Assembly (NCBI GenBank): GCA_903853895.1
Contig: CAINUX010000197.1
Coordinates: forward strand, 1 to 64,000
Direction of reading: 5' to 3'
DNA length: 64,000 nt
Origin: an uncultured beta proteobacterium
Lineage (GTDB): Bacteria > Pseudomonadota > Gammaproteobacteria > Burkholderiales > Burkholderiaceae_C
Positions 361-24,992 of this stretch are shown here, in pieces (within the stretch, counting starts at the first letter, position 1; every line of letters begins with the position of its first letter). The position numbers and the translations under genes are program-made. Below the pieces are notes generated by a model that worked only from the letters and a program-made list of their open reading frames with translations, did not search any database and was not told the origin of the DNA.

Positions 361-2067
361 GTGAATATTCCTACCCCCGCCATCGTCACGCAAGCAGGCG
401 CCCGACGCTTTCCGCGCTGGGCGTTGCTGCTGCTGTGCGTTGCCTATGTTTTGCCAGGCTTCGTTGGTCGCGAGGCATGGAAGAGCGAAGACATGGCTGC
501 GCTCGGGTTCATGGCCGAGTTGGTGCAAGGCAGCTCGCATTGGTTGTCGCCCACTTTAATGGGCATCCCCACTGAGAACCCCGCAGTCTTGCCCTATTGG
601 CTGGGCGCATGGGCCATGCAGCTCGCGCCCGCCTGGGTCGGCGCGGACTTCGTGGTGCGGATCCCCTTTGCATTGCTGATGGCATTGGCCATGGTTGCCA
701 CGTGGTATGGCACCTACTACCTCGCGCGCAACCCCTTGGCCCAACCGGTGGCCTTTGCCTTTGGCGGTGAGGCATTGCCTGCAGACTACGCCCGTGCTAT
801 GGCCGACGGCGGCTTGCTCGCCTTCATTGCCTGCCTGGGCTTGGCGCAGCTGTCACATGAAACGACACCGGCCTTGGCCCAATTGGGATTTGCAGCGCTC
901 TTTTTCTATGCCATGGGTGCACTGCCCTATCGTCGCCATGGCCCGGCAATGGCCGCAGCATTGGGTCTGACAGGCCTGTCACTGTCTGGTGCGCCCAGCT
1001 TGGCAATCCTGTTTGGCCTCGGCAGTACGGTGTTGCACTTTGCAGATCGTCCAGCGGACCAGCAGGACACCGCGCGCAACCGCCGGATTGCCAGAGAGAG
1101 CGTCGGCCTGTTAATGGTGACCCTGCTAACGGGAGTGTTGGCTTGGACACTTGACTTGCTGCGCTGGAAGCTCATGCTGCCGCGTGCGGACTGGTCTGAC
1201 TGGAATGGATTTATCCAGTTGCTAGTCTGGTTTACCTGGCCGGCTTGGCCCTTGGCGCTGTGGACACTGTGGCGATGGCGCCATCAACTGTTCAACCGAC
1301 GTATCAGCCGACACATTGCGCTGCCAACCTGGTTCGTGACGGTTTGCGTTGTGGCCACCTGGGCAACTGGGTCCTCCGACCGCACCTTACTACTTGCTCT
1401 ACCTGCGTTGGCGACTCTGGCCGCATTCGCGTTACCGACGCTGAAACGCCAGGTCTCGGCGCTAATTGACTGGTTCACACTGCTGTTTTTTTCAGGCTGC
1501 GCGTTCACCATCTGGGTGGTCTGGATCGCCATGCAAACCGGTTATCCGGCTCAACCTGCTGCCAACGTGGCACGTCTGGCACCAGGCTTTGTGTCCAGCT
1601 TTTCGCTATTCACCTATGCGGTCGCCATGGCGGCCACCGTGGCATGGGCCGGATTGGTCAGGTGGCGCGTCGGACGTCACCGTGCAGCGATCTGGAAGAG
1701 CCTGGTCCTGCCAGCAGGCGGCGCCACACTGAGCTGGTTGTTGCTGATGACCCTTTGGATGCCCTTGCTCAACTATGCGCAAAGCTATTCCGTGTTGGTA
1801 CAGCGAACCAAACTGCAACTGGCGACGTCATCCGGCTGCGTCGAAACACTCGGTCTTGGGCTGGGTCAGATCGCTGCATTCCAGTTCTATGGAAACCTGC
1901 AACTAAAGACCCTGCAAGAGACTCCAACCTGTCCCTGGCTTCTAGTTGAACCGCTACCCGACATGTCTGCGCCTGCGGGTATAGACACAAACGTATGGAC
2001 ACAACAGGATGTGATCCAGCACCCCGCCAACAGCGGAGAGTCCGTCTTGCTGTTCAAGCAGAAGTAG
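361..2067 (+). CDS. membrane glycosyltransferase, GT39/ArnT-like
   Basis: A 568-residue polytopic inner-membrane protein with about ten or more hydrophobic segments (the first at about residues 20-35). The pattern resembles the GT39/ArnT-like family, which transfers sugars from polyprenyl-phosphate donors to lipid A or proteins. The first periplasmic loop has acidic residues (KSEDMAALG, about residues 41-49) where the family keeps its catalytic acidic residue. A soluble C-terminal part of about 90 residues follows the last helix. The start is GTG with no clear Shine-Dalgarno sequence, so the N-terminus is uncertain. Its last 14 bases overlap the 3' end of phoR on the opposite strand. The substrate cannot be read from the sequence. 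Confidence 0.7.
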   Translation: MNIPTPAIVTQAGARRFPRWALLLLCVAYVLPGFVGREAWKSEDMAALGFMAELVQGSSHWLSPTLMGIPTENPAVLPYWLGAWAMQLAPAWVGADFVVRIPFALLMALAMVATWYGTYYLARNPLAQPVAFAFGGEALPADYARAMADGGLLAFIACLGLAQLSHETTPALAQLGFAALFFYAMGALPYRRHGPAMAAALGLTGLSLSGAPSLAILFGLGSTVLHFADRPADQQDTARNRRIARESVGLLMVTLLTGVLAWTLDLLRWKLMLPRADWSDWNGFIQLLVWFTWPAWPLALWTLWRWRHQLFNRRISRHIALPTWFVTVCVVATWATGSSDRTLLLALPALATLAAFALPTLKRQVSALIDWFTLLFFSGCAFTIWVVWIAMQTGYPAQPAANVARLAPGFVSSFSLFTYAVAMAATVAWAGLVRWRVGRHRAAIWKSLVLPAGGATLSWLLLMTLWMPLLNYAQSYSVLVQRTKLQLATSSGCVETLGLGLGQIAAFQFYGNLQLKTLQETPTCPWLLVEPLPDMSAPAGIDTNVWTQQDVIQHPANSGESVLLFKQK

Positions 2068-3418
2068 TCGGTACTGCGCGGTTCATCGGACCATCCATGG
2101 CGTAGCGCACCCGGTGGGATGGAAACGTCACGGAGAACGTCGAGCCTTTGCCTGGGGTACTGTCGATGGTCAGTTCCGCACCGTGGCGCTGTGCCACATG
2201 CTTGACAATTGCAAGACCCAGGCCCGTGCCGCCGGTATCACGCGAGCGGCTCCGATCCACTCGGTAGAAACGCTCAGTCAGGCGCGGAAGATGCTCTTGC
2301 GCTATACCATGCCCTTGGTCTCTAACAAAAAAAACGGCGCCACCGTCCGGCAATCGTTTGAATTCGACATCTATGCGCCGCTGCGATGGCGTGTAGCGAA
2401 TCGCGTTTCCAATCAGGTTGGACATTGCGCTATGCAACTCAACAACAGAACCTGCAATTTCACAGCCTTCGGAGTGCTCGAAATGCAAGTCATGCGACTG
2501 CGTCCACAACACATGCGAGAGGTCATGGGCATCCTGCGCGCATTGCTGCATCAGCACATCACAGGACACCCACTCATGCGTTGATGGCAAGGGGCTCCCT
2601 TCCAGGCGGGACAAGGTGAGTAAATCACTGACAAGCGTTTGCATGCGCTGGGCCTGCTGAGACATCAGCCCCAGGTAGCGCTGGCGCTCCTGATCGTCCA
2701 ATGGCAACGTCTGCAGTGTTTCGACAAAGCCTGCAAGCACTGTCAACGGCGTGCGTATTTCATGGGAAACGTTGGCGACAAAATCACGTCGCATAGCTTC
2801 TGCCTGCTCAACGGCGGTAATGTCACGCGAAAGCAAGAGAAGACGACCATCACCATAGGGGTGTAGATTGACCGACAACGTAACCGGCTTTGCCGTACTG
2901 TTCTCTCGCCCGGGCATGGTTACATCGTGCAGAAAATCACGGGCACCCAGGTAGGCGGTAAACCCCGGGTCGCGCACCAGATTCCCAAAATGCTGGAGCA
3001 AATCACGCCGGACATCAAAACCGAAGTGGTCCGCAGCCGTCTGGTTGAACCACTCAATGCGGGTGTCGGAATCCAGCAGCACCACACCGTTGGGTGATGC
3101 CTGCAGTGCGGCCAGAAAGTCCTTCAGACGGCCTTCACTCTCCACCGTCAATCGGCTGCTGGCACGTAGACTGCGCCGCATGCGGTCGTACGCCTCACCC
3201 CACAAACCGTTGCCCAGCGACAGGTCCGTCAAAGAACCAGCACGCAGCCAACGCAGCAACCGCAAGCCGCGAACGCTGTCTACGACAAACCAGATATAGC
3301 CGCCGGCCAAGGTCATCGCCAGCGTCACCTGCCACTCTTCTGCAACCGGTGCCAGATACCAACCGACGCCAGCAGCGCTGGCCTGACACAGGACAAGGGT
3401 GACTAACCGCCAGAACAT
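2054..3418 (-). CDS. phoR: phosphate regulon sensor histidine kinase PhoR
   Basis: A 454-residue membrane-bound histidine kinase that senses phosphate supply through PstSCAB/PhoU and phosphorylates PhoB. Two hydrophobic segments lie within residues 4-50, a PAS domain at about 100-200, the dimerisation/phosphoacceptor helix with SHEIRTPLTVL (His219), then an HATPase domain with N box (NLIGNAIRYTP) and the GTGLGLAIV glycine motif. This is the usual PhoR layout and length. It lies 18 bases downstream of phoB and is the last gene of the pst-pho operon. Its stop codon sits inside the end of the convergent glycosyltransferase gene. Confidence 0.95.
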   Translation of the reverse strand: MFWRLVTLVLCQASAAGVGWYLAPVAEEWQVTLAMTLAGGYIWFVVDSVRGLRLLRWLRAGSLTDLSLGNGLWGEAYDRMRRSLRASSRLTVESEGRLKDFLAALQASPNGVVLLDSDTRIEWFNQTAADHFGFDVRRDLLQHFGNLVRDPGFTAYLGARDFLHDVTMPGRENSTAKPVTLSVNLHPYGDGRLLLLSRDITAVEQAEAMRRDFVANVSHEIRTPLTVLAGFVETLQTLPLDDQERQRYLGLMSQQAQRMQTLVSDLLTLSRLEGSPLPSTHEWVSCDVLMQQCAQDAHDLSHVLWTQSHDLHFEHSEGCEIAGSVVELHSAMSNLIGNAIRYTPSQRRIDVEFKRLPDGGAVFFVRDQGHGIAQEHLPRLTERFYRVDRSRSRDTGGTGLGLAIVKHVAQRHGAELTIDSTPGKGSTFSVTFPSHRVRYAMDGPMNRAVPTTSA

Positions 3419-3436
3419 GCGAAAGGGTAACCCGTT

Positions 3437-4168
3437 CTATAGCCCGGCTTTATCCGCGACCGCGACCGCCACGACTACCGCAGGGGTAGCCGTAAGGCGA
3501 TAGCCCGCACCACGCACGGTCTCCACCATATTGCCGGCCTGCAACAGCGCCTCACGCAATCGTTTGACATGCACATCTACGGTACGTTCCTCAATATACA
3601 CATGGTCACCCCACACTTTGTCGAGCAGCTGAGCACGGCTATGCACCCGTTCTGCATGGCCCATCAGGTAATGCAGTAACTTGAACTCGGTAGGACCCAA
3701 CTTCAAGGGACGTTCTTCGAATGAAACGCGGTGGGTTGCCGGATCCAACACCAGAGCGCCAACGGTCAGCGCATCGCCCGCCTGCTCCGGTGTCCTACGG
3801 CGAAGCACAGCCCGTATGCGCGCAAGCAGCTCTTTCGTCGAGAAGGGTTTGGCAATATAGTCGTCTGCACCTGCATCCAGTCCCGCAACGCGATCGGCCT
3901 CGTCACCGCGCGCCGTCAACATGATCAATGGTACGGACTGGGTCCGCGGGTCAGCTCGCCACCGCTTGGCCAAGACCAGGCCACTTTCGCCCGGCAGCAT
4001 CCAGTCCAACAGGATCAGATCCGGCAGGCCCGCATCCAGATCTTTTTGGGCGGTGACGCTGTCCATGGCCCAGATGGGGCGAAACCCGTTGTGCCGCAGG
4101 TTGACAGCAATGAGTTCCGCAATGGCTGACTCATCCTCCACCACCAAGACTGAAGGCATGTTTCTCAT
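3437..4168 (-). CDS. phoB: phosphate regulon response regulator PhoB
   Basis: A 243-residue OmpR-family response regulator. The receiver domain (about residues 5-120) has the acidic pair ED at 11-12, the phospho-acceptor Asp55 in LLDWMLPG and the conserved Lys in YIAKPF. The C-terminal winged helix contains the recognition part with ERTVDVHVKRLR. Phosphorylated PhoB binds Pho boxes, several of which are visible in this window. The ATG overlaps the phoU stop (ATGA), indicating translational coupling. An internal ATG three codons later is an alternative start. The last 15 or so residues, valine- and alanine-rich, extend past the normal end of the family. Confidence 0.96.
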   Translation of the reverse strand: MRNMPSVLVVEDESAIAELIAVNLRHNGFRPIWAMDSVTAQKDLDAGLPDLILLDWMLPGESGLVLAKRWRADPRTQSVPLIMLTARGDEADRVAGLDAGADDYIAKPFSTKELLARIRAVLRRRTPEQAGDALTVGALVLDPATHRVSFEERPLKLGPTEFKLLHYLMGHAERVHSRAQLLDKVWGDHVYIEERTVDVHVKRLREALLQAGNMVETVRGAGYRLTATPAVVVAVAVADKAGL

Positions 4169-4866
4169 CTGATGACCGACTCAATCTTTTCTATCGAGGT
4201 GTGACGCACGTCCTCACCCTTGACTACATAGATGATGAACTCGGCAATGTTCTTGGCGTGGTCGCCAATGCGTTCAATGGCTTTAGCCAAAAACAGCAAG
4301 TCCAGGCTCGGCGAAATCATGCGAGGATCTTCCATCATGTAGGTGATGAGCTTGCGCACGAAGCCGTCAAACTCCGCATCAATCAGGTCATCTTCCTTCA
4401 AGATCGCCACAGCCGCAGTGATGTCCAGGCGCGCAAAGGCATCCAATGCCTTGTTGAGCAGACCGGACGCCAGATCTGCTGCCACCCGCAGTTCCAATGA
4501 CGGCAATGCCCTTGGTGTGCCACTTTGAATGATGGAGCGCACCATGCGGGCGATCTTCTCAGCTTCATCACCGACACGCTCCAGGTTGGCGGTGGTCTTG
4601 GAAATGGCGATCAGCAGGCGCAAATCACGTGCAGTGGGCTGGCGCCGGGCAATGATGGACGACAGGTCGCGGTCAATCTCGATTTCCATGGCATTCACGC
4701 GTGCTTCATTGGCGGACACCTCGTTGGCGACCTCCACGCTGAACTGCGACAGCGCGAAGATCGCTCGCCGGATTTGGGACTCCACCAAGCCACCAAGTTC
4801 CATCACTTGCGATGACACAGAGGTCAGCTCACTGTCAAACTGCGTCGATAAGTGTTTGTCGGGCAT
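4165..4866 (-). CDS. phoU: phosphate transport regulator PhoU
   Basis: A 233-residue all-helical cytoplasmic protein with the two PhoU repeats, each with its metal-binding signature (ERVGDEAEKIAR in the first, ERIGDHAKNIAE in the second). PhoU links the PstSCAB transporter to PhoR and represses the regulon when phosphate is plentiful. I chose the ATG at 4866 because AGAGGAAA lies seven bases before it; an upstream in-frame TTG would overlap that site. It follows pstB and overlaps phoB by four bases. Confidence 0.95.
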   Translation of the reverse strand: MPDKHLSTQFDSELTSVSSQVMELGGLVESQIRRAIFALSQFSVEVANEVSANEARVNAMEIEIDRDLSSIIARRQPTARDLRLLIAISKTTANLERVGDEAEKIARMVRSIIQSGTPRALPSLELRVAADLASGLLNKALDAFARLDITAAVAILKEDDLIDAEFDGFVRKLITYMMEDPRMISPSLDLLFLAKAIERIGDHAKNIAEFIIYVVKGEDVRHTSIEKIESVIR

Positions 4867-4920
4867 AAATTTCCTCTTTGTCAAAAGCTAACCGGGTGTC
4901 TGCTGCAAATCGTGCTGGTT

Positions 4921-5700
4921 TCAGCCGAACCGGCCGGTAATGTAATCTTCCGTCTCCTTGCGAGTTGGCTTGAAGAACATTTGTTCTGTTGAGCCAAACT
5001 CGACCAGATCACCCAGATACATGTAGGCCGTGTAGTCGCTACAACGGGCTGCTTGCTGCATGTTGTGGGTCACAATGACCACGGTGTAATCGTTCTTCAA
5101 TTCAACGATCAGTTCCTCGACCTTGGCTGTGGAGATCGGATCAAGTGCCGAGCAGGGTTCATCGAGCAGCAGTACCTCTGGCTTGATCGCAATGCCACGT
5201 GCAATGCACAAGCGCTGCTGTTGCCCGCCCGACAGACTGGAGCCGCTCTGTTGCAACTTGTCTTTGACTTCAGTCCACAACGCAGATTTGCGCAACGCCC
5301 ACTCCACACGCTCTTCCATATCCGTTGTATTGAGGGACTCAAACAACTTCACGCCAAATGCAATGTTGTCAAAAATGGACATTGGGAACGGTGTTGGCTT
5401 CTGGAACACCATGCCAACCTTGGCACGCAACAGGGCGACATCTTCCTTGCTGGTCAGCAGGTTCTCGCCGTCCAGCATGATGTGGCCCTCGGCACGCTGC
5501 TCAGGGTACAACTCAAACATGCGATTGAAGACGCGCAAGAGGGTGGATTTGCCACAGCCCGAAGGCCCAATGAAGGCAGTTACCTTGTTCTCGGGGATTT
5601 CCAGATTGATGCTCTTGAGCGCATGGAACTTTCCGTAGTAGAAATTCAGGTCCTTGACCGAAATCTTGGTTTTTTCAGGTGCAGTAGAGGTGTTCAACAT
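4921..5700 (-). CDS. pstB: phosphate ABC transporter ATP-binding protein PstB
   Basis: A 259-residue ATPase of the high-affinity phosphate importer. Walker A is GPSGCGKS (residues 45-52), the signature is [14 protein letters not shown], Walker B is VLLLDEP followed by CSALDP, and the switch histidine is in VIVTHNM. Length and motifs are standard for PstB. The reading frame is open further upstream into pstA, but the family N-terminus ([15 protein letters not shown]) and operon spacing favour the ATG at 5700; no strong Shine-Dalgarno is visible there. Confidence 0.96.
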
Positions 5701-5735
5701 AATGGGTTTGTTCGGAATAGTGGAAACAGTCGCAC

Positions 5736-6596
5736 TTAAATCTTCGATCGGGTCAGTACACGCGCCAGAATGTTCAACCCCAGAACCGCCGCTGTAATGA
5801 TGAAGACACCGGCCCAAGCCAGCTTCTGCCAATTCTCGTAAGGGCTCATCGCAAACTTGAAGATGGTCACCGGCAAACTGGCCATCGGCTCGCTCAGGCT
5901 ACTGGTCCAGAACTGGTTGCTCAACGCGGTGAATAGCAATGGAGCCGTCTCACCGGCAATCCGTGCCACCGCCAGCAAGACGCCAGTAATGACACCCGTT
6001 CTGGCCGCCTTGAGGGTAATGCTCAAAATGACTTTCCACTTGGGCGCCCCCAATGCATAAGCTGCCTCGCGCAGGCCAGGTGGCACCAACTGCAACATGT
6101 TCTCGGTGGTACGGATAACCACCGGTATCACCAACAGTGACAACGCCAGTACACCCGCATAGCCCGAGAACGATTTGAACCGGGAGACGACCACCGCGTA
6201 CACAAACAGGCCGATCACAATCGATGGCGCCGACAACAGGATGTCGTTGACGAAGCGTGTTGTCGAAGCCAGCCAGCTCTTGGTGTCGAACTCCGCCAGA
6301 TAGATACCTGCCATGACGCCGATAGGCGTACCCAGCCCGGTAGCCAACACAACCATGACGAACGATCCGTAAATGGCGTTCGCCAGTCCACCTTCATCGT
6401 TGGGCGGCGGCGTCATTTGTGTAAATGTGGCCACGGACATGCCACCAAGGCCTAGCAGCAAAGTCTCCCACAAAATCCAGAACAGCCAGAACAGGCCAAA
6501 TGACATGGCGGCCAGTGCCATGCCGGTTGCAAGCTGGTTCACCCGTTTGCGATGCGCAAACTTGGCGAGCTTCATTTGATGTGCCGTCGCGCTCAT
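5736..6596 (-). CDS. pstA: phosphate ABC transporter permease PstA
   Basis: A 286-residue inner-membrane permease with six predicted helices. The cytoplasmic EAA loop that docks PstB is visible ([15 protein letters not shown]), followed by [12 protein letters not shown]. It forms the channel with PstC. Its ATG overlaps the pstC stop codon (ATGA), so the two subunits are translationally coupled. Confidence 0.95.
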
Positions 6597-7624
6597 GTCT
6601 TGGCTCCTTCATTTTTCCGCAACTGGGCGAGCAGAATCTTGGACAGCGACAGGATTACAAACGTAATAAAGAAGAGAACCAAACCCAGATACATCAGAGA
6701 CGCCTGGTGCAGCCCTTCGCCAGCCTCGGCAAACTCATTCGCCAAAGCCGATGTGATACTGTTGGCCGCCTGGAACAGGCTCAATGTGTCGAGCTGGTTG
6801 AAATTGCCGATGACGAAGGTAACGGCCATGGTCTCACCAATGGCGCGCCCCAACCCCAACATGATGCCGCCAATCACACCCGACTTGGTGTACGGAAGAA
6901 CTACTTTGGTGACAACTTCCCAGGTGGTAGCGCCCAGCCCATAGGCCGATTCCTTCAACAGGGGCGGAGTCACCTCAAAGACGTCGCGCATCACCGCCGC
7001 AATGAACGGAATGATCATGATCGCCAAAATAATGCCCGCTGACAAAATACCAATGCCCACTGGTGGGCCGGAGACAAAAGCGCCCAGATAGGGAATCCCG
7101 GAAAACGCAGCCTGCAAGGGTTGCTGAACGTAGGTCGCCAATACCGGCCCAAACACCAGCAACCCCCACATGCCGTAGACGATAGACGGAACCGCAGCCA
7201 ACAGTTCAATGGCAGTTCCCAGCGGCCGCTTGAGCCACGCGGGAGACAGCTCCGTTAGGAACAGGGCGATGCCAAAACTGACGGGAACCGCAATCAGAAG
7301 TGCAATGAAAGACGTGGCCAACGTGCCATAAATCATGACCAAACCACCGAACTCCTCCTTGACGGGGTCCCACGTGGTGTTGGTCAAAAATCCCAGGCCG
7401 TATTTGTCGATAGCGGGCCAGGCGCTGATCGTCAAAGACGCCAGAATTGCCACCAACATGCCCAACGTGACAAAGGCTGCCGCCTTGGCCAACAACCCAA
7501 AAACGCGGTCAGCCCAGGGGCCCGACCGGGCCTTCTTCACAGGAGGAGGTAGATTCATTGCGCGAACCGTCTGAGTTGCAGAAGAGTTAGACGGTATACC
7601 GCCCGCCGCCAGTGTAGTTGACAT
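6593..7624 (-). CDS. pstC: phosphate ABC transporter permease PstC
   Basis: A 343-residue inner-membrane permease, partner of PstA. A cytoplasmic N-terminal stretch of about 40 residues precedes the first helix. Six hydrophobic segments and the EAA loop ([15 protein letters not shown]) followed by [10 protein letters not shown] match PstC. It lies 42 bases downstream of pstS, in the same operon. Confidence 0.95.
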
Positions 7625-7666
7625 GATTGGTATTCCGTACCCGCTCGTGACCTTGCTAGGCCCCGA

Positions 7667-8710
7667 TTACTTGAATGCCACAGGCTTGCCAGCGGCGTCC
7701 TTGATTTCACCCCAAGATTTTTCGATCGCAGCGATCACCGGCTTGGGCATAGGCACGTAGTCCAGGTCCGCGGCAATCTTGTCGCCGTTCTGGTACGCCC
7801 AGCTGAAGAACTTCAACACCTGTGTCGCATTGGCAGGTTTGTCCTGTTTGGTGTGCATCAGGATAAAAGTGGCGCCAGAGATGGGCCAAGCGTCCTTGCC
7901 AGGCTGATTGGTCAAGATCTGATAAAAAGACTTCGCCCAATCGGCACCAGCGGCGGCAGCCTTGAAGGTGTCATCCTCAGGTTTGATAAAGTTGCCTGCG
8001 GAGTTCTGCACAACGGCGTAGGCCATCTTGTTCTGCTTGACATAGGAATACTCCACGTAGCCCATGGAGTTGGGCAGGCGCGATACAAAAGCAGCAACGC
8101 CTTCATTGCCCTTGCCGCCCGCACCGACCGGCCAGTTGACCGCGGTACCCTCACCAACCTTGGCTTTCCAATCTGCGCTCACCTTGCTCAAATAGTTGGT
8201 GAAAATGAAGGTGGTGCCAGAGCCATCAGCGCGACGAACCTGGGCAATCGCGGCATCTGGCAACGCCAAGGTTGGATTCAGCGCTTTCAATGCTGGATCA
8301 TTCCAACGCGCAATCTTGCCAAGGTAGATATCAGCCAGAACGGGACCAGTCAATTTGAGCTGTCCTGGCTCAATCCCCTTGACATTGATGACAGGGACAA
8401 CACCGCCCATCACCGTTGGAAATTGCATTTGCCCCTTTGTCTTCAGAACTTCGTCCGTCAAAGGCATGTCGGATGCGCCGAAATCGACCGTTTTGGAGTC
8501 AATCTGCTTGATGCCACCACCAGATCCGATGGACTGGTAATTCACCTTGACGCCCGTGGCTTTGTTGTAGTCAGCGGCCCACTTGGAGTAGATCGGTGCT
8601 GGGAACGTGGCACCAGCGCCCGTGATTTCCTGAGCACTCACGGCACCGGCAAAACCAAACGCGGTGGCTACAGCCAGGGACAAAAGCGGCAATTTGAAAG
8701 CGATTTGCAT
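7667..8710 (-). CDS. pstS: periplasmic phosphate-binding protein PstS
   Basis: A 347-residue phosphate-binding protein that delivers phosphate to PstCAB. The signal peptide covers residues 1 to about 24 and ends in VSA-QE. The phosphate-binding regions are visible: GAGATFPAPIYSKW, SIGSGGGIKQI, DFGASDMPL and RRADGSGTTFIF. The open frame extends 23 codons further upstream but that stretch covers the Pho box and promoter, so I chose the ATG at 8710. First gene of the pst-pho operon and expected to be strongly induced by low phosphate through the box at 8762-8779. Confidence 0.96.
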   Translation of the reverse strand: MQIAFKLPLLSLAVATAFGFAGAVSAQEITGAGATFPAPIYSKWAADYNKATGVKVNYQSIGSGGGIKQIDSKTVDFGASDMPLTDEVLKTKGQMQFPTVMGGVVPVINVKGIEPGQLKLTGPVLADIYLGKIARWNDPALKALNPTLALPDAAIAQVRRADGSGTTFIFTNYLSKVSADWKAKVGEGTAVNWPVGAGGKGNEGVAAFVSRLPNSMGYVEYSYVKQNKMAYAVVQNSAGNFIKPEDDTFKAAAAGADWAKSFYQILTNQPGKDAWPISGATFILMHTKQDKPANATQVLKFFSWAYQNGDKIAADLDYVPMPKPVIAAIEKSWGEIKDAAGKPVAFK

Positions 8711-8745
8711 AAGTAACCCTATTCGGTTGATTGAGGAATGGAAGG

Positions 8746-8779
8746 ACTTTAAGAAAGTTTTGTGACAGAGCGGTGACAT
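8746..8779 (-). promoter_or_regulatory. Pho box and -10 of pstS
   Basis: On the minus strand, ATGTCAC-CGCT-CTGTCAC (8779-8762) gives two half-sites 11 bases apart, close to the Pho box consensus of two CTGTCAT repeats with a 4-base spacer. Ten bases further is TAAAGT (8751-8746), a plausible -10 at the spacing typical of PhoB-activated promoters, with no -35 needed. Confidence 0.85.
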
Positions 8780-8848: not shown

Positions 8849-8882
8849 TTGTCACATGGTTGTCATGAGAGTTTTTTACGCT
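8849..8882 (+). promoter_or_regulatory. Pho box upstream of the FAS1 lipoprotein
   Basis: On the plus strand, TTGTCAC-ATGG-TTGTCAT (8849-8866) is a near-perfect Pho box. Ten bases downstream is TACGCT (8877-8882), in the -10 position. The start codon of the divergent gene is at 8914. The site points away from pstS, so it should serve the FAS1 gene. Confidence 0.75.
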
Positions 8883-16891: not shown

Positions 16892-18820
16892 CTATGACTG
16901 CTGGCTCGACAAATCTTTCCAGCTCCAGGAACGCAGTGCCCTGAGCAATGAACGCTTCTTCTCCTGGTGACCACCCATGCGTCGCAAGATGTCATCGAGC
17001 GTACGGATCGCGTCCCCAATGTAAGGGCCTTTGTTCAACATCACGCATTCGGCCCGCACGCCCAATCCGGCGTCGGATATCTCGGCCCGAGACGGAACGC
17101 CTGTCTTGGCCAATGTCTCGAGAACCTGGGTTGCCCAAATGACCGGCATATGCGCCGCCTCTGCACACCAGAGTATTTCCTCCTGAACTTCCGCAAGCCG
17201 CTCATATCCGCATTCAACTGCCAGGTCGCCCCGAGCAATCATGACACCTGCAGATGCCCCTGACATGGCTGCGAGCATGAGTTCGGGCAAGTTTTCGAAA
17301 CCCTTGAGTGTTTCAATCTTGAGAACGATGCCCATGTCAGCGCGACCCAGAAGGTCAAGGTGTTCCCGCAAGAGGTATACGTCATCGGTGCGCTGGACAA
17401 AGGACAGCCCGACCATGTCTGCCTCGCGCGCAACTGCGGCCAGGTCTTGCAGGTCCTTTTCCGTCAAGGCTGGCAAATCCAGTTCGCTGTCAGGCAGGTT
17501 GATCCCTTTGTCGCCAATCAGCTTTTCACCCCCATCACGCGCCTGGGTGATCTCAACCTCCAGCCAATTGCTGGTGACGTCCCGAATCACACCACCGATC
17601 TTTCCATCGTCAAACCACATGCGCTCGCCAATGCGAGCCTGATCGATAACCTGCGGCAACGTACAAGCGATGCGGGCAGGCTCCATGACGACACCATCTT
17701 CCCCGTCTTCAACGACTGCACCACTTCCGATTCCATCCCGTGTCACCCGAATGACGTCACCCAAGTGAAGATGAAGATTGCCCGGCAGGCTTTCGATCCG
17801 GCCCGCCAGCGTTGAGCGCCATTTCTTGCCATCAGCCCCGTGGATGGTCAGCAGTGTTTCTGGCGTCAGATAGGCAGTCTGCACACTTTCTGCAATGGCA
17901 CCGCGGTCATCGCAATGGACAACCAGCAAGTGGCGCTTGGCGCCACGCGCATCTGAAAAGTCGATTTGCGAGCCCGCCTTCAAATGGGCCAGCCACTTGT
18001 CTTCGACGCCTATGTAGCCGTCCGCATCCATCATGTCATGTGGCAGATTGCGGGAATGAATACGCAGACGGTATGGCTTGTGGGGGCGGCCATATTCGTC
18101 GCGTTGAGGGCGCATCCGCAAAACAGGGGGTCGCGGTGCAACTTCGCCCGTCCTGATTTTCGGGCCCCCAAGATCCATCAGTATTCGCACACTGCGTTGC
18201 ACAGACTTTGCCGCATGGCGAACATTCATCGCCATGACCTTCCAGTCTTCCGGGCTATCGTGTGCGCAGTTGATGCGTGCTATGTCCATGCCCGCCTCCA
18301 CCAACTCCCGCACGACGCTGTAGTCTGTCGCTGCGGTGGAGGGTAGCGTGACCATGATTCGCACCGGGCGCCCCTGGGGATGCTTGCCCAGCAGATCGAC
18401 TGCGTGCCCCTCCAGCAAACGGCGACTGCTCACACTGCCGGCGGGCTCCTCGGCGGATTTATCCATCCAATCCTGCTCCGTGAGGCAATGGAGGATTCCG
18501 AGCACCTTGTCCAGATTGGCCAGTACATGGGACTCCGAACGCCCGAGCGACGACAGTCCGAGCCACGCGAGTTGCTCTTGCACAGGCCTTAGGTCATGCA
18601 CGCGCAGCGCGAGGTAGTGAACCAGATTTCGCGCACTTTCCCGGTACTTTGGCGACACGCGCGAAAGCTCCGCCTGCATGGCAGCCTCCCGTGCGTGCAT
18701 GGAATGCCGCAGTTTCTGCAACTCTCCGATGAGTGACAGGCACACCTGTTCGCGCGTGGTAACGGCTACCGCCTTGAGCGAATGGGTGCGCGTGGAAACT
18801 GGCGTTTTACTCTGGATCAT
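16892..18820 (-). CDS. pyruvate kinase-like protein with N-terminal extension
   Basis: A 642-residue protein. An N-terminal extension of about 150 mostly helical residues precedes a pyruvate kinase barrel. Family landmarks can be aligned: AGMDIARINCAHDSPEDW, ILMDLGGPKIRTGE, IVLKIETLKGFENL, MIARGDLAVE and VIWATQVLETLAKTG with SRAEISDAGLG. Key Arg, Asn, Asp, Lys and Glu are kept, but the Ser of the NFSH motif is Ala and the VMLSGETA motif reads VMLNKGPY. The regulatory C-terminal domain of ordinary pyruvate kinase is missing. Whether it is a metabolic kinase is unsure. It lies 111 bases downstream of sixA on the same strand. Confidence 0.75.
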   Translation of the reverse strand: MIQSKTPVSTRTHSLKAVAVTTREQVCLSLIGELQKLRHSMHAREAAMQAELSRVSPKYRESARNLVHYLALRVHDLRPVQEQLAWLGLSSLGRSESHVLANLDKVLGILHCLTEQDWMDKSAEEPAGSVSSRRLLEGHAVDLLGKHPQGRPVRIMVTLPSTAATDYSVVRELVEAGMDIARINCAHDSPEDWKVMAMNVRHAAKSVQRSVRILMDLGGPKIRTGEVAPRPPVLRMRPQRDEYGRPHKPYRLRIHSRNLPHDMMDADGYIGVEDKWLAHLKAGSQIDFSDARGAKRHLLVVHCDDRGAIAESVQTAYLTPETLLTIHGADGKKWRSTLAGRIESLPGNLHLHLGDVIRVTRDGIGSGAVVEDGEDGVVMEPARIACTLPQVIDQARIGERMWFDDGKIGGVIRDVTSNWLEVEITQARDGGEKLIGDKGINLPDSELDLPALTEKDLQDLAAVAREADMVGLSFVQRTDDVYLLREHLDLLGRADMGIVLKIETLKGFENLPELMLAAMSGASAGVMIARGDLAVECGYERLAEVQEEILWCAEAAHMPVIWATQVLETLAKTGVPSRAEISDAGLGVRAECVMLNKGPYIGDAIRTLDDILRRMGGHQEKKRSLLRALRSWSWKDLSSQQS

Positions 18821-18931: not shown

Positions 18932-19393
18932 CTACAGGACTTCGGGTGACTGGACCGTGACAACAACGGTCTGGGCACCCGCCTCCCGTTCGCGGGAGCG
19001 CAACCACCACAGCGACCCTTTTTTCACAGAGCACTCGCTGGCGTTCAAACCCAACAGATTCGCAATCGTCTGCCCCAGGGTGGGCTGGTGCCCAATCACC
19101 AGCACGCAACCTTTTCCGTGGGGCCACTGCACCAGTTCCAGCAGTTGCTCACTGGTACCCAATGGCCCAAGCATGGGACTGAACCGGAACTTGCGTTCCA
19201 ACGCCTGCGCCGTTTGCTCGGTGCGCCGGGAAGGACTCACCCAGATGCGCGCGCTGTCGGGCAGTTGCCGGTCCAGCCATGCAGCCATGCGTGCGGCCTG
19301 TTTCTCACCGCGTGGGGTGAGCACACGGGCCATGTCGTCACCACCAGGTGCGACTTCCACTGCTTCGGCATGTCGCCACAAAATCAGGTCCAT
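18932..19393 (-). CDS. sixA: phosphohistidine phosphatase SixA
   Basis: A 153-residue histidine phosphatase. The catalytic motif is in MDLILWRHAEAVE (RHA with His8), the Arg/Ser segment is SPSRRTEQTAQAL and the second histidine is in VLVIGHQPTLGQ. SixA dephosphorylates phosphohistidine on HPt domains or on the nitrogen phosphotransferase protein NPr. The gene starts nine bases after the ppk stop with a good ribosome site (GAGGGG), so it is cotranscribed with ppk, an arrangement common in proteobacteria. Confidence 0.92.
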   Translation of the reverse strand: MDLILWRHAEAVEVAPGGDDMARVLTPRGEKQAARMAAWLDRQLPDSARIWVSPSRRTEQTAQALERKFRFSPMLGPLGTSEQLLELVQWPHGKGCVLVIGHQPTLGQTIANLLGLNASECSVKKGSLWWLRSREREAGAQTVVVTVQSPEVL

Positions 19394-19402
19394 GATTGCC
19401 CC

Positions 19403-21502
19403 TCAATCCTGGTCTTTGCCGGTGTCGGCATAGCGCGCCATCAGCGCTGCCTGCGCACCATACACGGCGGTTTTTCCATCGCCCTGGTAGCGGGTATAAG
19501 TGCCATCCGGTCCCAGGTCCCATGCATCCACGCCATCGTGCAAGTAGGCCACCAGGCACTCGTCGACCAGGCGTTGGCGCTGCACCGGATCGGTGACGGG
19601 CCAAGCCAGCTCCACACGGCGCACCATGTTGCGGTTCATCCAGTCTGCGCTGGACAGATACAGGTCCTCCACCTCGCCTTCCCTGAAATAGAAAACGCGT
19701 GAATGCTCCAGGAAACGCCCGATGATGGAGCGCACCCGGATGTTGTCGGTGTGCCCAGCGACTTGCGCTGGCAGCATGCAGGCACCCCGCACGATCAGGT
19801 CAATCTTGACACCCTTACGCCCGGCCCGCATCAGGCTGTGGATCAATGCTTCGTCCGTCAACGAATTCATCTTGGCCACAATACGCGTGGAGCGACCACG
19901 GGCAGCGGCCATTCCCAAAGCGTCAATCTTGTCGATCAAATTGCGATGCAAGTGAAACGGTGCAAACCACAGTTTGCGCAGCGGCGGCAGCCGACTCTGG
20001 CTGGCCAGGTGCACAAACACCTGCTCCATGTCGGTCGTGAGCGCCGTGTCGGCGGTGATGTGGCTGACATCGGTGTACAGGCGCGCGGTTCGGGGGTTGT
20101 AATTTCCAGTCGACAAGTGGCCGTAGCGTTTGAGCGTCTTGCCCTCGCGCCGGGTAATCAGCATCATCTTGGCGTGGGTCTTCAGGCCGACCACGCCATA
20201 CAAGACCTGGGCGCCGATCGACTCCAGCATCTCCGCCCAATTGATGTTCGCCTCTTCGTCAAAGCGGGCCTTGAGCTCCACCACCACCGTCACCTCTTTG
20301 CCCTGGCGCACCGCCTCGCGCAACAGGTCCATCAGTTCGGAATTGGGGCCGGTGCGGTAAATGGTCTGCTTGATCGCCAGCACCTGGGGATCATTGACCG
20401 CTTCCCGCAGAAACTCCAGCACGCCGTCAAAGCTTTCGAACGGCTGGTGAATCAATATGTCGCCCTGTTTGAGCTGATCAAAGACCGATAGCACCGTATC
20501 CATCTGGGCCGGGAACGACGCTTTGTACGGTGCAAAGCACAAGTCCGGACGGTCCACCAGATCGATCAGCTGCGTCAGACGAACCAGGTTCACCGGACCA
20601 GGCACCCGATACAGTGCTTTGGGCGGCAAGTCAAACTGCTGCAGCAAAAAGTCAGACAGGTATTCTGAACATCCCGCTGACACTTCCAACCGCACGGCTT
20701 GCCCATAGTGGCGGTGCACCAAGCCTTGACGCAGCGCCGTTCGCAAATTCTTGACATCGTCTTCGTCGACCGCCAAATCAGAATGCCGAGTCACCCGGAA
20801 CTGCGAGAACTGTCCCACATGCCGTCCGGCAAACAGCTCCGACAAATGCGCGCGGATCACGCTGGACAATGACACCAGCAGGGTGCGCGTGCCGGACACT
20901 TTTGCGGGCATGCGGATCAGGCGTGGCAAGACCCGTGGCACCTTCACAATCGCAATTTCATTCTCGCGACCGAACGCATCGCGTCCACCCAGGCGCACAA
21001 TGAAATTCAACGACTTGTTGGCAACCTGGGGAAAGGGATGGGACGGATCCAACCCGACAGGAATCAGCAACGGCCGAACTTCGCGCTCGAAATACTGCTT
21101 GACCCACTGGCGCTGGGCCGGATTGCGGTCTCCATGGGAAATGATCTTGATGCCCAAGCCTTCAAAGGCCGGCATCAACTTCTCGTTGTACAGCGCGTAC
21201 TGGCGACCTACGATGTCATGCAGGGACGCGGCCAGGCGTTCGAAAGACCCGACCGAGAACACCCCTTTGCGATCATTGGCCTGGTTGGCGATGAGATGGG
21301 GCTCGGCCCGCACCTCGAAAAACTCATCCAGATTGGATGACACGATGCACAAATAGCGCAGTCGCTCCAGCAGCGGCACATCGTCTCGCACTGCCCAATC
21401 CAGCACGCGCTCGTTGAAAGCCAATATGCTGTGATCGCGATCCAGCAGGGCGGGGCCCAGTAAGGGCGCCTGCAATTTTGGACTGCGAAGAAATGACAAC
21501 AT
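19403..21502 (-). CDS. ppk1: polyphosphate kinase 1
   Basis: A 699-residue enzyme that makes polyphosphate from ATP. It shows the PPK1 N domain (LERLRYLCIVSSNLDEFFEV), the autophosphorylated histidine in GLKTHAKMML (His443), YGHLSTGNYNPRTARLYTD, and the second histidine in FLEHSRVFYF. I chose the ATG at 21502, with AAGG eight bases before it; the GTG five codons upstream has no ribosome site. The promoter region carries two Pho boxes (21519-21570), the distal one lying inside the end of the preceding gene. It leads into sixA. Confidence 0.96.
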   Translation of the reverse strand: MLSFLRSPKLQAPLLGPALLDRDHSILAFNERVLDWAVRDDVPLLERLRYLCIVSSNLDEFFEVRAEPHLIANQANDRKGVFSVGSFERLAASLHDIVGRQYALYNEKLMPAFEGLGIKIISHGDRNPAQRQWVKQYFEREVRPLLIPVGLDPSHPFPQVANKSLNFIVRLGGRDAFGRENEIAIVKVPRVLPRLIRMPAKVSGTRTLLVSLSSVIRAHLSELFAGRHVGQFSQFRVTRHSDLAVDEDDVKNLRTALRQGLVHRHYGQAVRLEVSAGCSEYLSDFLLQQFDLPPKALYRVPGPVNLVRLTQLIDLVDRPDLCFAPYKASFPAQMDTVLSVFDQLKQGDILIHQPFESFDGVLEFLREAVNDPQVLAIKQTIYRTGPNSELMDLLREAVRQGKEVTVVVELKARFDEEANINWAEMLESIGAQVLYGVVGLKTHAKMMLITRREGKTLKRYGHLSTGNYNPRTARLYTDVSHITADTALTTDMEQVFVHLASQSRLPPLRKLWFAPFHLHRNLIDKIDALGMAAARGRSTRIVAKMNSLTDEALIHSLMRAGRKGVKIDLIVRGACMLPAQVAGHTDNIRVRSIIGRFLEHSRVFYFREGEVEDLYLSSADWMNRNMVRRVELAWPVTDPVQRQRLVDECLVAYLHDGVDAWDLGPDGTYTRYQGDGKTAVYGAQAALMARYADTGKDQD

Positions 21503-21518
21503 AGATTCAGCCTTCACT

Positions 21519-21570
21519 ATGACACAACAGTGACGGATTGTTTACGTATTTGATGACAATTTTGTGACAA
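21519..21570 (-). promoter_or_regulatory. two Pho boxes in front of ppk
   Basis: On the minus strand the first box reads TTGTCAC-AAAA-TTGTCAT (21570-21553), a near-consensus site encoded within the last codons of the glycosyltransferase gene. The second reads CCGTCAC-TGTT-GTGTCAT (21536-21519) with the same 11-base half-site spacing. The ppk ATG is at 21502. The first box leaves room for a promoter; the second is so close that it may act in cooperative binding. Confidence 0.8.
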
Positions 21571-22624
21571 CTCCGTGAGCACCCGATCCGCAATCGAGCG
21601 CGGTCCCGTTTCGGGCGGGTACCAAGTGCCGCACAAACAGTTGTGATGCGTAGGCCCAGCTAAAGCTCTGCGCTCGTGCTCTGGCTTCGTGGCGGGGAAT
21701 GGACAGAGCCTGGTACCAAGCACTGTCAAGATCCTGATTCAGAGCGCCCCCAAGCGCATTGACACCCACCACTTCCAGAGGGCCTTCTACCGGATACGCC
21801 GCAACGGGCGTTCCGCTGGCCATGGCCTCCAGCATCACCAAACCAAAGGTCTCGGACTTGCTGGGCATGACAAACACATCTGCGGCCCCGTAGACCCGTG
21901 CCAACACGTCGCGCGGCAGGACACCCAACCAGCGAACATGCGGGAAGCGCTCACGCAAGTCGGCCTCCAGGGGTCCGACGCCGCAAACGACCTTGGTACC
22001 CGGCACGTCCATGCGCAAGAATGCCTCGATATTCTTTTCGTAGGACACCCTGCCCACAAAGAGTGAAACCGGCCGGGCCAAGCCACCCAGCGGCGCATAG
22101 ACCTGAGGCACCTCCTGGTAATTGAAGAGCCGCATATCCACACCGTGCGTCCAGCCGCGAAGATTGCGAAACCCACGGGACTCCAGCATCCGCAACACAC
22201 TGGGGGTTGGCACCAACACGCCCGAAGACGGCTTGTGAAAGTGCCGAAACAGCCCGTACCCCAACCATAGAGGTATGTGAAGCGCCGCCTTCAGGATTTC
22301 TGGAAACCGGGTGTGAAAGGCAGTGGTGAATGACAGGCCGCGCCGCAGGCAATATCGTCTGGCGGCCCAGCCCAGTGGACCTTCGGTGGCAAGGTGGATG
22401 GCGTCGGCGTTCACAGCATCGAGTCGACGGGCCAACGCTTTGGCGGGCCGCACTGCCAGGTCAATACCGGCATAGCCAGGGCAAGGCCGGGTTCCAAACA
22501 AACCGGGGTGGATGACCTCCACCTGGTGGCCCAGACTCTCCATCTCACGCACCAATTCCACCAAGGTGGTGACGACGCCATTGACCTGAGGCTGCCACGC
22601 GTCAGTAATCAGCGCAAGCTTCAT
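21542..22624 (-). CDS. agt: Agt-like lipid glycosyltransferase, GT4
   Basis: A 360-residue GT-B glycosyltransferase. The N-terminal domain begins MKLALITDAWQPQVNGVVTT, a hallmark of diacylglycerol glucosyltransferases; the C-terminal domain has LFVGRVSYEKNIEAFL and the donor-site motif SKSETFGLVMLEAMASGTPV. Its start overlaps the stop of the PlcP-like gene (ATGA). Family knowledge: Agt next to PlcP makes glycolipids from the diacylglycerol that PlcP releases, replacing phospholipids when phosphate is short. The exact sugar is unknown. The 3' end holds a Pho box for ppk. Confidence 0.8.
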   Translation of the reverse strand: MKLALITDAWQPQVNGVVTTLVELVREMESLGHQVEVIHPGLFGTRPCPGYAGIDLAVRPAKALARRLDAVNADAIHLATEGPLGWAARRYCLRRGLSFTTAFHTRFPEILKAALHIPLWLGYGLFRHFHKPSSGVLVPTPSVLRMLESRGFRNLRGWTHGVDMRLFNYQEVPQVYAPLGGLARPVSLFVGRVSYEKNIEAFLRMDVPGTKVVCGVGPLEADLRERFPHVRWLGVLPRDVLARVYGAADVFVMPSKSETFGLVMLEAMASGTPVAAYPVEGPLEVVGVNALGGALNQDLDSAWYQALSIPRHEARARAQSFSWAYASQLFVRHLVPARNGTALDCGSGAHGVVTKLSSNT

Positions 22625-23484
22625 GCCGCTACCTCCTGCTGGGCATGGACGAGCGTGCTGCTGGTCTGCTCTTCATTCCAATAGACCAACTCCAGACGAC
22701 CATCCAGGTGCTCCACCAAAGCGCTGCGGCTTTCGACCCAGTCACCATCGTTGCAATACAGGGTGCCATTGATGTCGCGCATTTCGGCACGGTGGATGTG
22801 ACCACACACCACACCATCATGGCCAAGCGAGCGTGCTGCCTGGGCAACCGCAACCTCAAAGTCCGTGACATAGTTGAGTGCGGTCTTGACTTTCTGTTTG
22901 AGATACGCCGACAGTGACCAATACGGCAGCCCCAAGCGCGCCCGCAAACCGTTGAGGTAACGATTGAGCTTGAGCGTGAACTCATAGAGGTTGTCGCCCA
23001 GGAACGCCAGCCACTTGGCACACTGGATCACTCCATCAAAGTAGTCACCGTGGGTGATCCACAGCTTGCGGCCATCGGCGGTTGTGTGGACCGCATCTTC
23101 GCGCACCTCGATACCACCAAATTCGTGGCCCAGGAAGCCGCGCGCAAACTCGTCATGATTTCCCGGAATGAATACAACTTTGCAGCCCTTACGGGCCCGG
23201 CGCAGCAGCTTTTGCACCACGTCGTTGTGCGATTGCGGCCAGAACCAGCGCCGGCGCAATTGCCACCCGTCGACAATGTCGCCCACCAGGTACAGGTAGT
23301 CGCTTCGGTTCGCCTTGAGAAAGCCCAATAGCGCCTGCGCCTGGCAACCGGCCGTTCCCAGGTGAACGTCGGACACGAAAATGGCGCGGTAGCGGTGCGC
23401 CGGATGGTGATCATCGTCATCCGTGGATGCGCTATCCAGCATGCCCCGCATCAACGGAGCAAAGGCGTCGGGACCGGCCCGCAT
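22621..23484 (-). CDS. plcP: PlcP-like phospholipase C (metallophosphoesterase)
   Basis: A 287-residue calcineurin-type phosphoesterase of the UDP-2,3-diacylglucosamine hydrolase superfamily. Metal-binding motifs are FVSDVHLG, LVGDIVDGW, FIPGNHDEFARG, THGDYFDG and CGHIH. The WPQSHNDVVQKLLRRA segment and the pairing with an Agt-like gene match PlcP, which cleaves phosphatidylcholine or phosphatidylethanolamine to diacylglycerol during phosphate starvation, rather than the lipid A enzyme LpxH. The start overlaps the olsB stop (TGATG) after a G-rich ribosome site; the frame is open further upstream but within olsB. Confidence 0.82.
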   Translation of the reverse strand: MRAGPDAFAPLMRGMLDSASTDDDDHHPAHRYRAIFVSDVHLGTAGCQAQALLGFLKANRSDYLYLVGDIVDGWQLRRRWFWPQSHNDVVQKLLRRARKGCKVVFIPGNHDEFARGFLGHEFGGIEVREDAVHTTADGRKLWITHGDYFDGVIQCAKWLAFLGDNLYEFTLKLNRYLNGLRARLGLPYWSLSAYLKQKVKTALNYVTDFEVAVAQAARSLGHDGVVCGHIHRAEMRDINGTLYCNDGDWVESRSALVEHLDGRLELVYWNEEQTSSTLVHAQQEVAA

Positions 23485-24296
23485 CAAGCCCCCAGGAAAT
23501 GTTTGCGATAACGCTGGGGCAGATCGGCAATGCGCATCAGCATCGGCAAATCGGCGGAGTTGAAATCCGGGTCCCACGCTGGTGGCCCCAACACTTTTGC
23601 GCCACACCGCAGGTAGCCCTTGATCAGCGCAGGGGGTTCCACATCCAACGAGGCATCCAGCTGCTCAATGGGCAGCGGCAGTCGCGGGCGGACCTGGTAT
23701 TCGATCGGGGCCAGATGGGTGGCTTGTACCTGGCGCCAGATGCTGGCCGCTACATCACCGCAAACCACGCCGTTGTGCAGCATGGGGACACTTGCGCAAC
23801 CAATCATGGTGTCCAGCTGGTTGCGCACCATGAACGCCCCCAGCGCAGCCCACAGCGCCATGATGACACCGCCATGGCGGTAGTCCTTGTGCACACAACT
23901 GCGGCCCAATTCGACCATACGGTCTCGCAGACTGCGTAAGCGGGTGAGGTCGAACTCGGTATCACTGTATGTGCTGCCGATTCGCTGCGCCTGCACAGGC
24001 GTCAATACACGGTACGTCCCGATGACTTGCCCAGTGTCTTCATCACATACCAGCAGGTGTTCGCAAAAGTTGTCGAACAGATCAATGTCATGCCCCGCCA
24101 ACGTGGTGCTCAATCGGGCTCCCATCTCATTGGCGAACACGTCGTAGCGCAGCCGCTGTGCGGCACGTACTTCATCCAGGTGTGTAGCCCATGAGACCTT
24201 GATGCCAAACCGTTCTTTGGGTGCCATCGGTATTCCAGCCGAACGTTCGGCTTCCGAATATCCCTGAGGTGTGACAGCGTGCATCTGTTCCTTCAT
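23484..24296 (-). CDS. olsB: OlsB-like ornithine-lipid acyltransferase
   Basis: A 270-residue GNAT-fold protein matching the L-ornithine N-alpha-acyltransferase family (Acetyltransf_5). Visible motifs are LRYDVFANEMGA, NFCEHLLVCDEDTG, VIGTYRVL, MVELGRSCVHKDYR and PPALIKGYLRCGAKV, and the end RYRKHF. OlsB makes lyso-ornithine lipid, the first step toward a phosphorus-free membrane lipid; a second acyltransferase (OlsA) is not in this window. The ATG at 24296 is six bases after GGAGG; two ATGs close together make this choice clear. It is coupled to plcP by a one-base overlap. Confidence 0.8.
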   Translation of the reverse strand: MKEQMHAVTPQGYSEAERSAGIPMAPKERFGIKVSWATHLDEVRAAQRLRYDVFANEMGARLSTTLAGHDIDLFDNFCEHLLVCDEDTGQVIGTYRVLTPVQAQRIGSTYSDTEFDLTRLRSLRDRMVELGRSCVHKDYRHGGVIMALWAALGAFMVRNQLDTMIGCASVPMLHNGVVCGDVAASIWRQVQATHLAPIEYQVRPRLPLPIEQLDASLDVEPPALIKGYLRCGAKVLGPPAWDPDFNSADLPMLMRIADLPQRYRKHFLGA

Positions 24297-24298
24297 GA

Positions 24299-24529
24299 TC
24301 ATCCTCCGTGTTGAATTGCCATGGACAAATCTCCGCGCCGCTCGGAAAGCGCGTCCAGCCACGGACGGGTACCTGCCTTGAAACGCAAGCCACCGGGACT
24401 GTTTGCCAGCGCAAGGGCTGTGCAGCGCAAGATGCGCAGACACTGTTGCTCAAATTCATGTGCCGGGCCACAGGCAGACATCCCAATGGACTTGCCCAAT
24501 TCAACCGCAGCGCTCAAACGTGTTCCCAT
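24299..24529 (-). CDS. small protein leading the olsB operon
   Basis: A 76-residue open frame directly ahead of olsB, its stop two bases before the olsB start and containing the olsB ribosome site. It starts at an ATG preceded by GGAG six bases away; an in-frame ATG four codons earlier is possible. The sequence (ending DLSMAIQHGG) has two cysteines and no clear domain. I do not recognise the family. The tight spacing suggests translational coupling to olsB, and a small partner or leader peptide is possible. Confidence 0.5.
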   Translation of the reverse strand: MGTRLSAAVELGKSIGMSACGPAHEFEQQCLRILRCTALALANSPGGLRFKAGTRPWLDALSERRGDLSMAIQHGG

Positions 24530-24559: not shown

Positions 24560-24615
24560 ATTCTGAAATGCGCAGATGACGCGTTCGCGTCATTTCAATG
24601 GCAGTTTTGTGTCAT
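24560..24615 (-). promoter_or_regulatory. candidate Pho-box array of the olsB operon
   Basis: On the minus strand four imperfect half-sites follow at 11-base steps: ATGACAC, CTGCCAT, ATGACGC and GCGTCAT (24615-24576). The last pair forms an 18-base inverted repeat (ATGACGCG-AA-CGCGTCAT). Exactly ten bases later is CAGAAT (24565-24560), in the -10 position. Individual half-sites match the consensus only partly, so this is a weak call. The region can be read in the other direction as well (GTGTCAT at 24609-24615). Confidence 0.4.
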
Positions 24616-24716: not shown

Positions 24717-24992
24717 ATGCGCAAACCCCTGACAGCTTCTACCAATAGACCTGAGGCGCATTCGTTCGAGTGCGAAGCGAAGGTCTGCCCTGAAATGAAC
24801 CAATGTGTATTTGCCGCAACGGGCGTTACCATGGACGTCTTGGGCCTGCCTTTTGACATCGCACGAGCCCAGTACGCACGTGCGGTGCAGCTTGGCTTGA
24901 TTGAGCGTTCCATGCTCGCATCCCGAGATTTTTCACGCGTTCTGGGGTCGTTGGAGAAGTTAACGCTCGGGCCTTGGGCACGGCACGTATAG
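24717..24992 (+). CDS. hypothetical small cysteine-containing protein
   Basis: A 91-residue protein that I do not recognise. It starts with ATG after AAGGAATTGCC, a good ribosome site, behind a recognisable promoter. The N-terminal half has three cysteines (FECEAKVCPEMNQC), and the C-terminal half is predicted to be helical. No signal peptide or membrane segment is visible. It is divergent from the olsB operon and is followed by a terminator, so it is a one-gene unit. The intervening region holds the candidate Pho-box array, so low-phosphate control is possible. Confidence 0.6.
   Translation: MRKPLTASTNRPEAHSFECEAKVCPEMNQCVFAATGVTMDVLGLPFDIARAQYARAVQLGLIERSMLASRDFSRVLGSLEKLTLGPWARHV

Follow-up and report, generated by a model that had tools for sequence, protein, structure and literature searches.

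The stretch of DNA analysed here (the window) comprises the first 64,000 nucleotides of contig CAINUX010000197.1 from an uncultured beta proteobacterium of the Burkholderiaceae_C (assembly GCA_903853895.1, G000 below; 4.69 Mb in 292 contigs), and this study concerns a run of genes in it that resemble the lipid genes olsB, plcP and agt and are followed by ppk and sixA. All five genes lie on the minus strand in that order. The gene of the olsB-like N-acyltransferase (23484..24296, ATG to TGA, 270 residues) overlaps that of a plcP-like metallophosphoesterase of the phospholipase C type (22621..23484, ATG to TGA, 287 residues) by one base (TGATG), and plcP overlaps the gene of an agt-like glycosyltransferase of family 4 (GT4; 21542..22624, ATG to TAA, 360 residues) by four bases (ATGA). 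There is no overlap between agt and ppk1, the polyphosphate kinase gene (19403..21502), which follows after 39 bases when its ATG start is used and has an in-frame GTG at 21517 as an alternative; its product carries the PP_kinase Pfam domains and scored 1054.6 bits against a cut-off of 691. The last gene encodes a sixA-like phosphohistidine phosphatase (18932..19393) with a Pfam match to His_Phos_1, whose 72.1 bits are slightly under the cut-off of 74.5. An earlier note, made from the letters of this DNA, had described the coordinates, order and one- and four-base overlaps of olsB, plcP and agt and the ppk-sixA pair behind them, and all of this was confirmed. It had let the lipid unit extend over 21542..24296, which is right for the three genes, but the true start lies earlier, as a gene of 76 amino acids and unknown family (24299..24529, minus strand) had been overlooked. 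This small gene, the first of the putative operon, stops two bases short of olsB, and its stop overlaps GGAGG, the likely ribosome-binding site of olsB. Promoter and terminator scans gave results no better than shuffled sequence.

Judged by motif, tree and identities, the phosphoesterase of the window is PlcP-like and is not LpxH. It is a calcineurin-like phosphoesterase (PF00149 and PF12850, 45-46 bits) with 55% identity over 242 amino acids to a P. aeruginosa homologue, the gene of which shares four bases with a glycosyltransferase gene, and 51% identity over 241 amino acids to an S. meliloti homologue; both references are homologues that were equated with the characterised genes by identity and gene order, not by label. 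The metal-ligand motifs SDxH, GDxxD, GNHD, HGD and GHxH are all present, and the full set was found in 135 of 142 PlcP-like loci of relatives. If the enzyme were instead an LpxH paralogue for lipid A synthesis, the genes would form an envelope cluster without any tie to phosphate, and public records do label such homologues UDP-2,3-diacylglucosamine diphosphatase, while one LpxH model gives a weak match of 45.3 bits. However, this match misses its cut-off of 134, as does that of a second LpxH model (37.4 bits against 190.35), and the genome encodes a separate LpxH (G000:C186), which reaches 221 bits with the LpxH model and shares 25% identity over 121 amino acids with the PlcP-like protein. 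The motif GNHD occurs in the window protein and in 140 of the 142 PlcP-like loci, against GNRD in 20 of 20 LpxH sequences fetched, and PMC5016852 describes the Arg after the ligand Asn as restricted to LpxH, other metallophosphoesterases carrying His. A tree of 62 sequences combined the window protein and three references with 20 LpxH, every sixth family locus (of 142) and every second of 29 motif-bearing loci of the order; in it, the 42 PlcP-like sequences formed a single branch apart from the 20 LpxH, with a support of 0.75 and a branch length of 2.35. The LpxH identity, contradicted by the motif, the tree, the identities and the separate lpxH gene, is highly improbable and was rejected. The earlier note had itself named clustering with LpxH as the outcome that would speak against its PlcP call, and no such clustering was seen. 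Given its PlcP-like character, the enzyme would be expected to act as a phospholipase C on phospholipid. The LpxH label, carried in public records by plcP homologues such as those at loci L240, L242 and L243, can cause surveys that rely on annotation to miss the pathway. The record CP090106.1 (L240, L241), titled S. meliloti pSymB, is 3.72 Mb long and has rpoN, lptB, mutS and other chromosomal-type genes; it is probably a chromosome under the wrong title.

The Agt-like identity also stood, with GT4 domains in Pfam (68-69 bits) and 47% identity over 332 amino acids to the P. aeruginosa glycosyltransferase adjoining plcP. For the Agt of SAR11, the residues of the diacylglycerol glycosyltransferase have been described, i.e., the catalytic pair His104-Asp256, the motifs GRVAxEKN and FPSxTDTFG, and others (PMC8231724). 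The window protein retains His104, Gly16/82/85, Arg192, Lys197, Thr259-Phe260-Gly261, Glu266, Trp323 and Thr159, and its versions of the two sugar-nucleotide motifs are GRVSYEKN and MPSKSETFG. It may act on diacylglycerol, in which case the sugar donor would be UDP-glucose or UDP-glucuronate. The OlsB-like protein contains the PF13444 acyltransferase domain (125.2 bits, cut-off 22.4), the NCBIfam models that match it best are the two for OlsB, and it is 34% identical to S. meliloti OlsB over 243 columns.

The main sample for the distribution of these genes was 200 genomes of the host's family, which were searched for PlcP (E 1e-20), OlsB (E 1e-15) and Agt (E 1e-40); PlcP was found in 147, OlsB in 163 and Agt in 75. 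Genes were taken as adjacent when olsB lay upstream or agt downstream of plcP within 400 bases, the host window was included, and the counts of olsB adjacency are lower bounds among the matches listed. The earlier note had proposed a comparison of gene neighbourhoods in Comamonadaceae, and in this comparison the arrangement recurs: the order olsB-plcP-agt was present at at least 40 of 148 plcP places, and it is therefore beyond chance. Among the matches listed, other plcP places had olsB only (at least 18), agt only (22) or olsB downstream (1). Two sets of loci from relatives, with genomes partly common to both, were further collected, namely 80 named loci, which were picked by closeness to Agt and are thus biased towards plcP-agt, and 62 unnamed loci. 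The triad was present in 74 of the 80 named loci, with ppk next to it in 66 of the 74; in seven of the eight triads without ppk next, the room available exceeds 400 bases. The titles of the named loci include Rhodoferax, Polaromonas, Curvibacter, Ramlibacter, Caenimonas, Hylemonella, unclassified Comamonadaceae and others, and isolates such as Polaromonas sp. JS666 (L163, headed by the small gene) and Curvibacter delicatus (L140, headed by phoX) carry the arrangement, of which the earlier note had known no description; it is not a one-off. The closest Agt in named records (91% identity) comes from a Rhodoferax assembly (L171), and the host is accordingly regarded as Rhodoferax or a near neighbour of it. 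In an order-wide sample of 29 loci, the best-scoring of 107 PlcP-bearing genomes and including two from the host's own family, agt was beside plcP in 15 and olsB in one within flanks of 1.5 kb. Therefore, plcP-agt looks widespread, and its union with olsB seems for the most part to be a trait of the host's family.

The small first gene was found as a tblastn frame in 25 of the 80 named and 2 of the 62 unnamed loci; under a stricter rule on position, 21 of 132 olsB-bearing loci carried it. Eighteen columns are invariant across 15 sequences of the small protein. Compared with the nearest relative, the nonsynonymous rate (dN) is 0.04 and the synonymous rate (dS) 0.58, and compared with the next they are 0.16 and 1.07; by this measure, the gene encodes a real protein under selection. 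No match to it was found in Pfam, NCBIfam, PHROGs or PDB. When 299 family genomes that had not been chosen by the small gene were searched, eight matches were obtained. Five were strong (E 2.8e-28 or better), each a short distance upstream of olsB and in the same orientation; the three weak ones (E 1.7e-4 to 8.0e-4) were treated as chance, and the gene was absent in that search from two further genomes of the host's genus. The AlphaFold model has three helices, with a mean predicted local distance difference test score (pLDDT) of 63.4 and a predicted template modelling score (pTM) of 0.34, and is confident only for residues 22-43. In other relatives, phoX fills the same slot: it was directly upstream of olsB in 17 of 75 named and 8 of 57 unnamed olsB-bearing loci, whose genomes are partly common. 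These phoX calls were made by tblastn, and PF05787 confirmed those of L140 (590 bits) and L138. A tentative proposal, which we would not yet favour over its negation, is that the first gene represents a new family of small proteins, induced by PhoB and devoted to lipid replacement, e.g., by tuning OlsB, PlcP or Agt. If true, the small protein would set the ratio of ornithine lipid to glycolipid, and in any case the operon exposes a conserved, unstudied small protein. The small-protein family and phoX aside, the eight largest clusters of frames upstream of olsB looked antisense, out-of-frame or part of a neighbouring gene and were discarded. An alike short frame (MSRQF...RRFNEFKDR...GEDDPLVSQWRTE...) lies just upstream of olsB in L120 and L122 and is possibly another small protein in that slot.

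Pho-box-like sites were searched with a matrix derived from the named loci, in which 51 distinct sites had been found before ppk. In the 64-kb window, eight sites scored at least 13, whereas five resampled windows had none or one each. The top score of the window, 28.3, belongs to TTGTCACAAAATTGTCAT (21553..21570, minus strand), which falls within the final codons of agt, some 50 bases ahead of the ppk ATG; as the ppk sites of relatives served to train the matrix, this score is not independent. A second, weaker site before ppk (21519..21536, minus strand) scored 13.5. At the operon head, the site ATGACACAAAACTGCCAT (24598..24615, minus strand) lies some 70 bases ahead of the small gene, and pstS has two overlapping sites of 15.7 each (8779..8751). 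The presumed sensor and regulator are encoded in the run pstSCAB-phoU-phoB-phoR (2054..8779, minus strand), the nearest edge of which is 13 kb from agt; PhoB scored 327.7 bits (cut-off 296.2) and PstS 460.8 (cut-off 339), and the rest of the run was named by eye from the translation. These sites and the regulatory genes agree with the link to phosphate starvation that the earlier note had drawn from other proteobacteria.

The plain Pho consensus CTGTCATNNNNCTGTCAT was then counted in the relatives at a threshold of 11 or more of 14 letters. Upstream of ppk, 64 of the 72 named loci reached this threshold (2 of 216 resamplings), as did 28 of the 46 unnamed ones (1 of 138); before sixA, none of 64 named and none of 44 unnamed loci did. 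Before agt the consensus occurred in 1 of 80 named loci (5 of 240 resamplings), and in the 500 bases before olsB in 24 of 71 named (5 of 213) and 23 of 53 unnamed loci (9 of 159). With the matrix, the operon head scored 13 or more in 15 of the 21 loci that have the small gene (0 of 105 resamplings) and in 29 of the 110 that lack it (0.7% of resamplings), and 15 of 24 phoX promoters did so too (0 of 120). Because a strong and conserved Pho-box-like site stands directly before ppk, this gene probably has its own PhoB promoter. In E. coli, ppk is a member of the Pho regulon.

The position of the best Pho-box match, before ppk and overlapping the end of agt, leaves unsupported, as worded, the idea of the earlier note that one message leads from the lipid genes into polyphosphate synthesis; read-through into ppk may still occur. 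In its fuller form, this idea of the note is that the lipid genes and ppk-sixA form a single regulatory unit and are transcribed together as one long message, whether or not ppk has an additional promoter. It gains from the short gap between agt and ppk on the same strand, where no terminator-like site is listed, from the frequency of ppk behind the named triads (66 of 74), and from the persistence of ppk beside plcP in loci without agt (L095, L100), without olsB (L113) or without both (Mitsuaria, L243). With the strong conserved site directly before ppk, however, the long message is not needed, and the seven named triads that have room for ppk and lack it point the same way; we regard the single unit as doubtful.

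Taken together, the small gene, olsB, plcP and agt very probably constitute a PhoB-controlled lipid-replacement operon of four genes beside a ppk-sixA unit with its own PhoB site. Several observations weigh against this interpretation. Neither olsB nor agt adjoins plcP at 67 of the 148 plcP places, among the matches listed; therefore, the genes are not inseparable. The site at the operon head is modest (13.4), and in the scanned stretch a score of 13 is missed by 6 of the 21 loci that have the small gene and by 81 of the 110 that lack it. The consensus was also present before agt in 6 of 50 unnamed loci (4 of 150 resamplings), which is somewhat above chance, and the comparison is not perfectly clean. 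In the glycosyltransferase, Asp256 of the SAR11 Agt is replaced by Glu258 and Arg163 by His160; the P. aeruginosa homologue has Arg-Lys at the place of Thr162-Arg163.

The OlsB-like protein is under both NCBIfam cut-offs (156.5 against 350 and 147.4 against 320), and OlsB is the weakest call among the three enzymes. The name given in the earlier note thus keeps its domain and its best-matching models, and is less firm in view of the missed cut-offs and the 34% identity. These scores would also suit an enzyme whose product is not ornithine lipid but a lipid of another amino acid (lysine, glutamine or other) or a signal of the N-acyl amino acid type. The N-acyltransferase family takes in OlsB, GluB and GlsB (PMC11631085), and in A. 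baumannii OlsB is required for lysine lipids too (PMC11828411). On the other hand, the OlsB models outscore those of OlsF (48.0 bits), homoserine-lactone (24-25) and GlsB (19.9), and the missed cut-off says little because the S. meliloti OlsB homologue, with 511 against the cut-off of 320, itself reaches only 242 against the Rhodobacter-type cut-off of 350. A product other than ornithine lipid appears unlikely, and ornithine lipid is retained as the expected product.

The lipid operon and the separate ppk-sixA unit could work as follows. At low phosphate, PhoR-PhoB from the same window would switch on both in parallel, with ppk induced from its own site. PlcP would cut the head groups of phospholipids, yielding diacylglycerol and phosphate esters, and Agt would add a sugar to the diacylglycerol, so that a glycolipid free of phosphorus is formed. 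The first step towards an amino-acid lipid, probably ornithine lipid, would be taken by OlsB and the last by an O-acyltransferase encoded elsewhere; the best OlsA candidate, on another contig (G000:C1:8506-9156), scored 132.3 bits against a cut-off of 300. The overlapping stop and start codons would couple the translation of the enzymes. The sequence shows how the genes are ordered and overlap, which families they resemble, how far they are conserved and where sites match; the regulation, the enzyme activities, the choice of sugar and amino acid, and any passage of freed phosphate into polyphosphate are inferred from it. Since named isolates carry the operon, the lipid balance and any link to polyphosphate are testable.

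Some further features were observed around these genes. The second-best site of the window (8849-8866, 24.1) precedes a gene with a fasciclin domain (PF02469; 8902-9414, plus strand) that is divergent from pstS, which suggests that this gene may belong to the Pho regulon. Another site (56700-56683, minus strand, 13.6) is apparently within a reading frame and may be due to chance. Downstream of sixA is a pyruvate kinase frame (16892-18820, minus strand, 642 amino acids; 777 bits with the PRK14725 model, cut-off 642). A frame of 91 amino acids (24717-24992, plus strand) is divergent from the operon, as it is in the named loci L118, L119, L124, L129 and L171, and had no match in Pfam, NCBIfam or PHROGs.

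In searches of the open-licence literature, no description was found of olsB joined to plcP-agt or of this block in Comamonadaceae, nor any report of lipid replacement in the genera around Rhodoferax and Polaromonas; the earlier note had likewise known of no such description of the arrangement. The individual enzymes belong to known types, but no account was found of the whole set, which has a small protein of unknown family at its head and is shared by many relatives. In P. aeruginosa, plcP-agt operons with Pho boxes make glycolipids, and plcP-agt1 (PA3219-PA3218) has plcP, then agt, with a Pho box in front, like the window (PMC8528852); plcP-agt with a Pho box is also found in PMC9239053. 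A P. aeruginosa plasmid record shares the plcP-agt order and the four-base overlap (PlcP 55% and Agt 47% identical), but unlike the window it has no olsB, small gene or ppk within 6.7 kb. The gene agt follows plcP in SAR11 and others, and the marine plcP neighbourhood of type 2 has the same order, with Pho boxes in plcP clusters (PMC4796936); in contrast to the window, olsB and ppk are named in none of the six types in the plcP-context section of that paper. For olsB, control by PhoR has been reported in A. baumannii (PMC11828411), and Pho boxes were predicted at olsB in 21 of 43 genomes of Burkholderia sensu lato (PMC7814305). These genes resemble that of the window in having a Pho box, and in Acinetobacter olsA is likewise elsewhere (PMC11828411), but the main texts of these two papers are without plcP, whereas olsB of the window sits within a plcP-agt operon; plcP is also absent from the main text of the aminolipid-family paper PMC11631085. 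On a plasmid of Mitsuaria sp. 7, plcP stands directly before ppk1 (PlcP 66% identical), and neither olsB nor agt separates or flanks the two within 6.8 kb. The glycolipid route of plcP-agt and the ornithine-lipid route of olsB, which occupy separate loci in the literature found, thus very probably share one operon beside ppk here.

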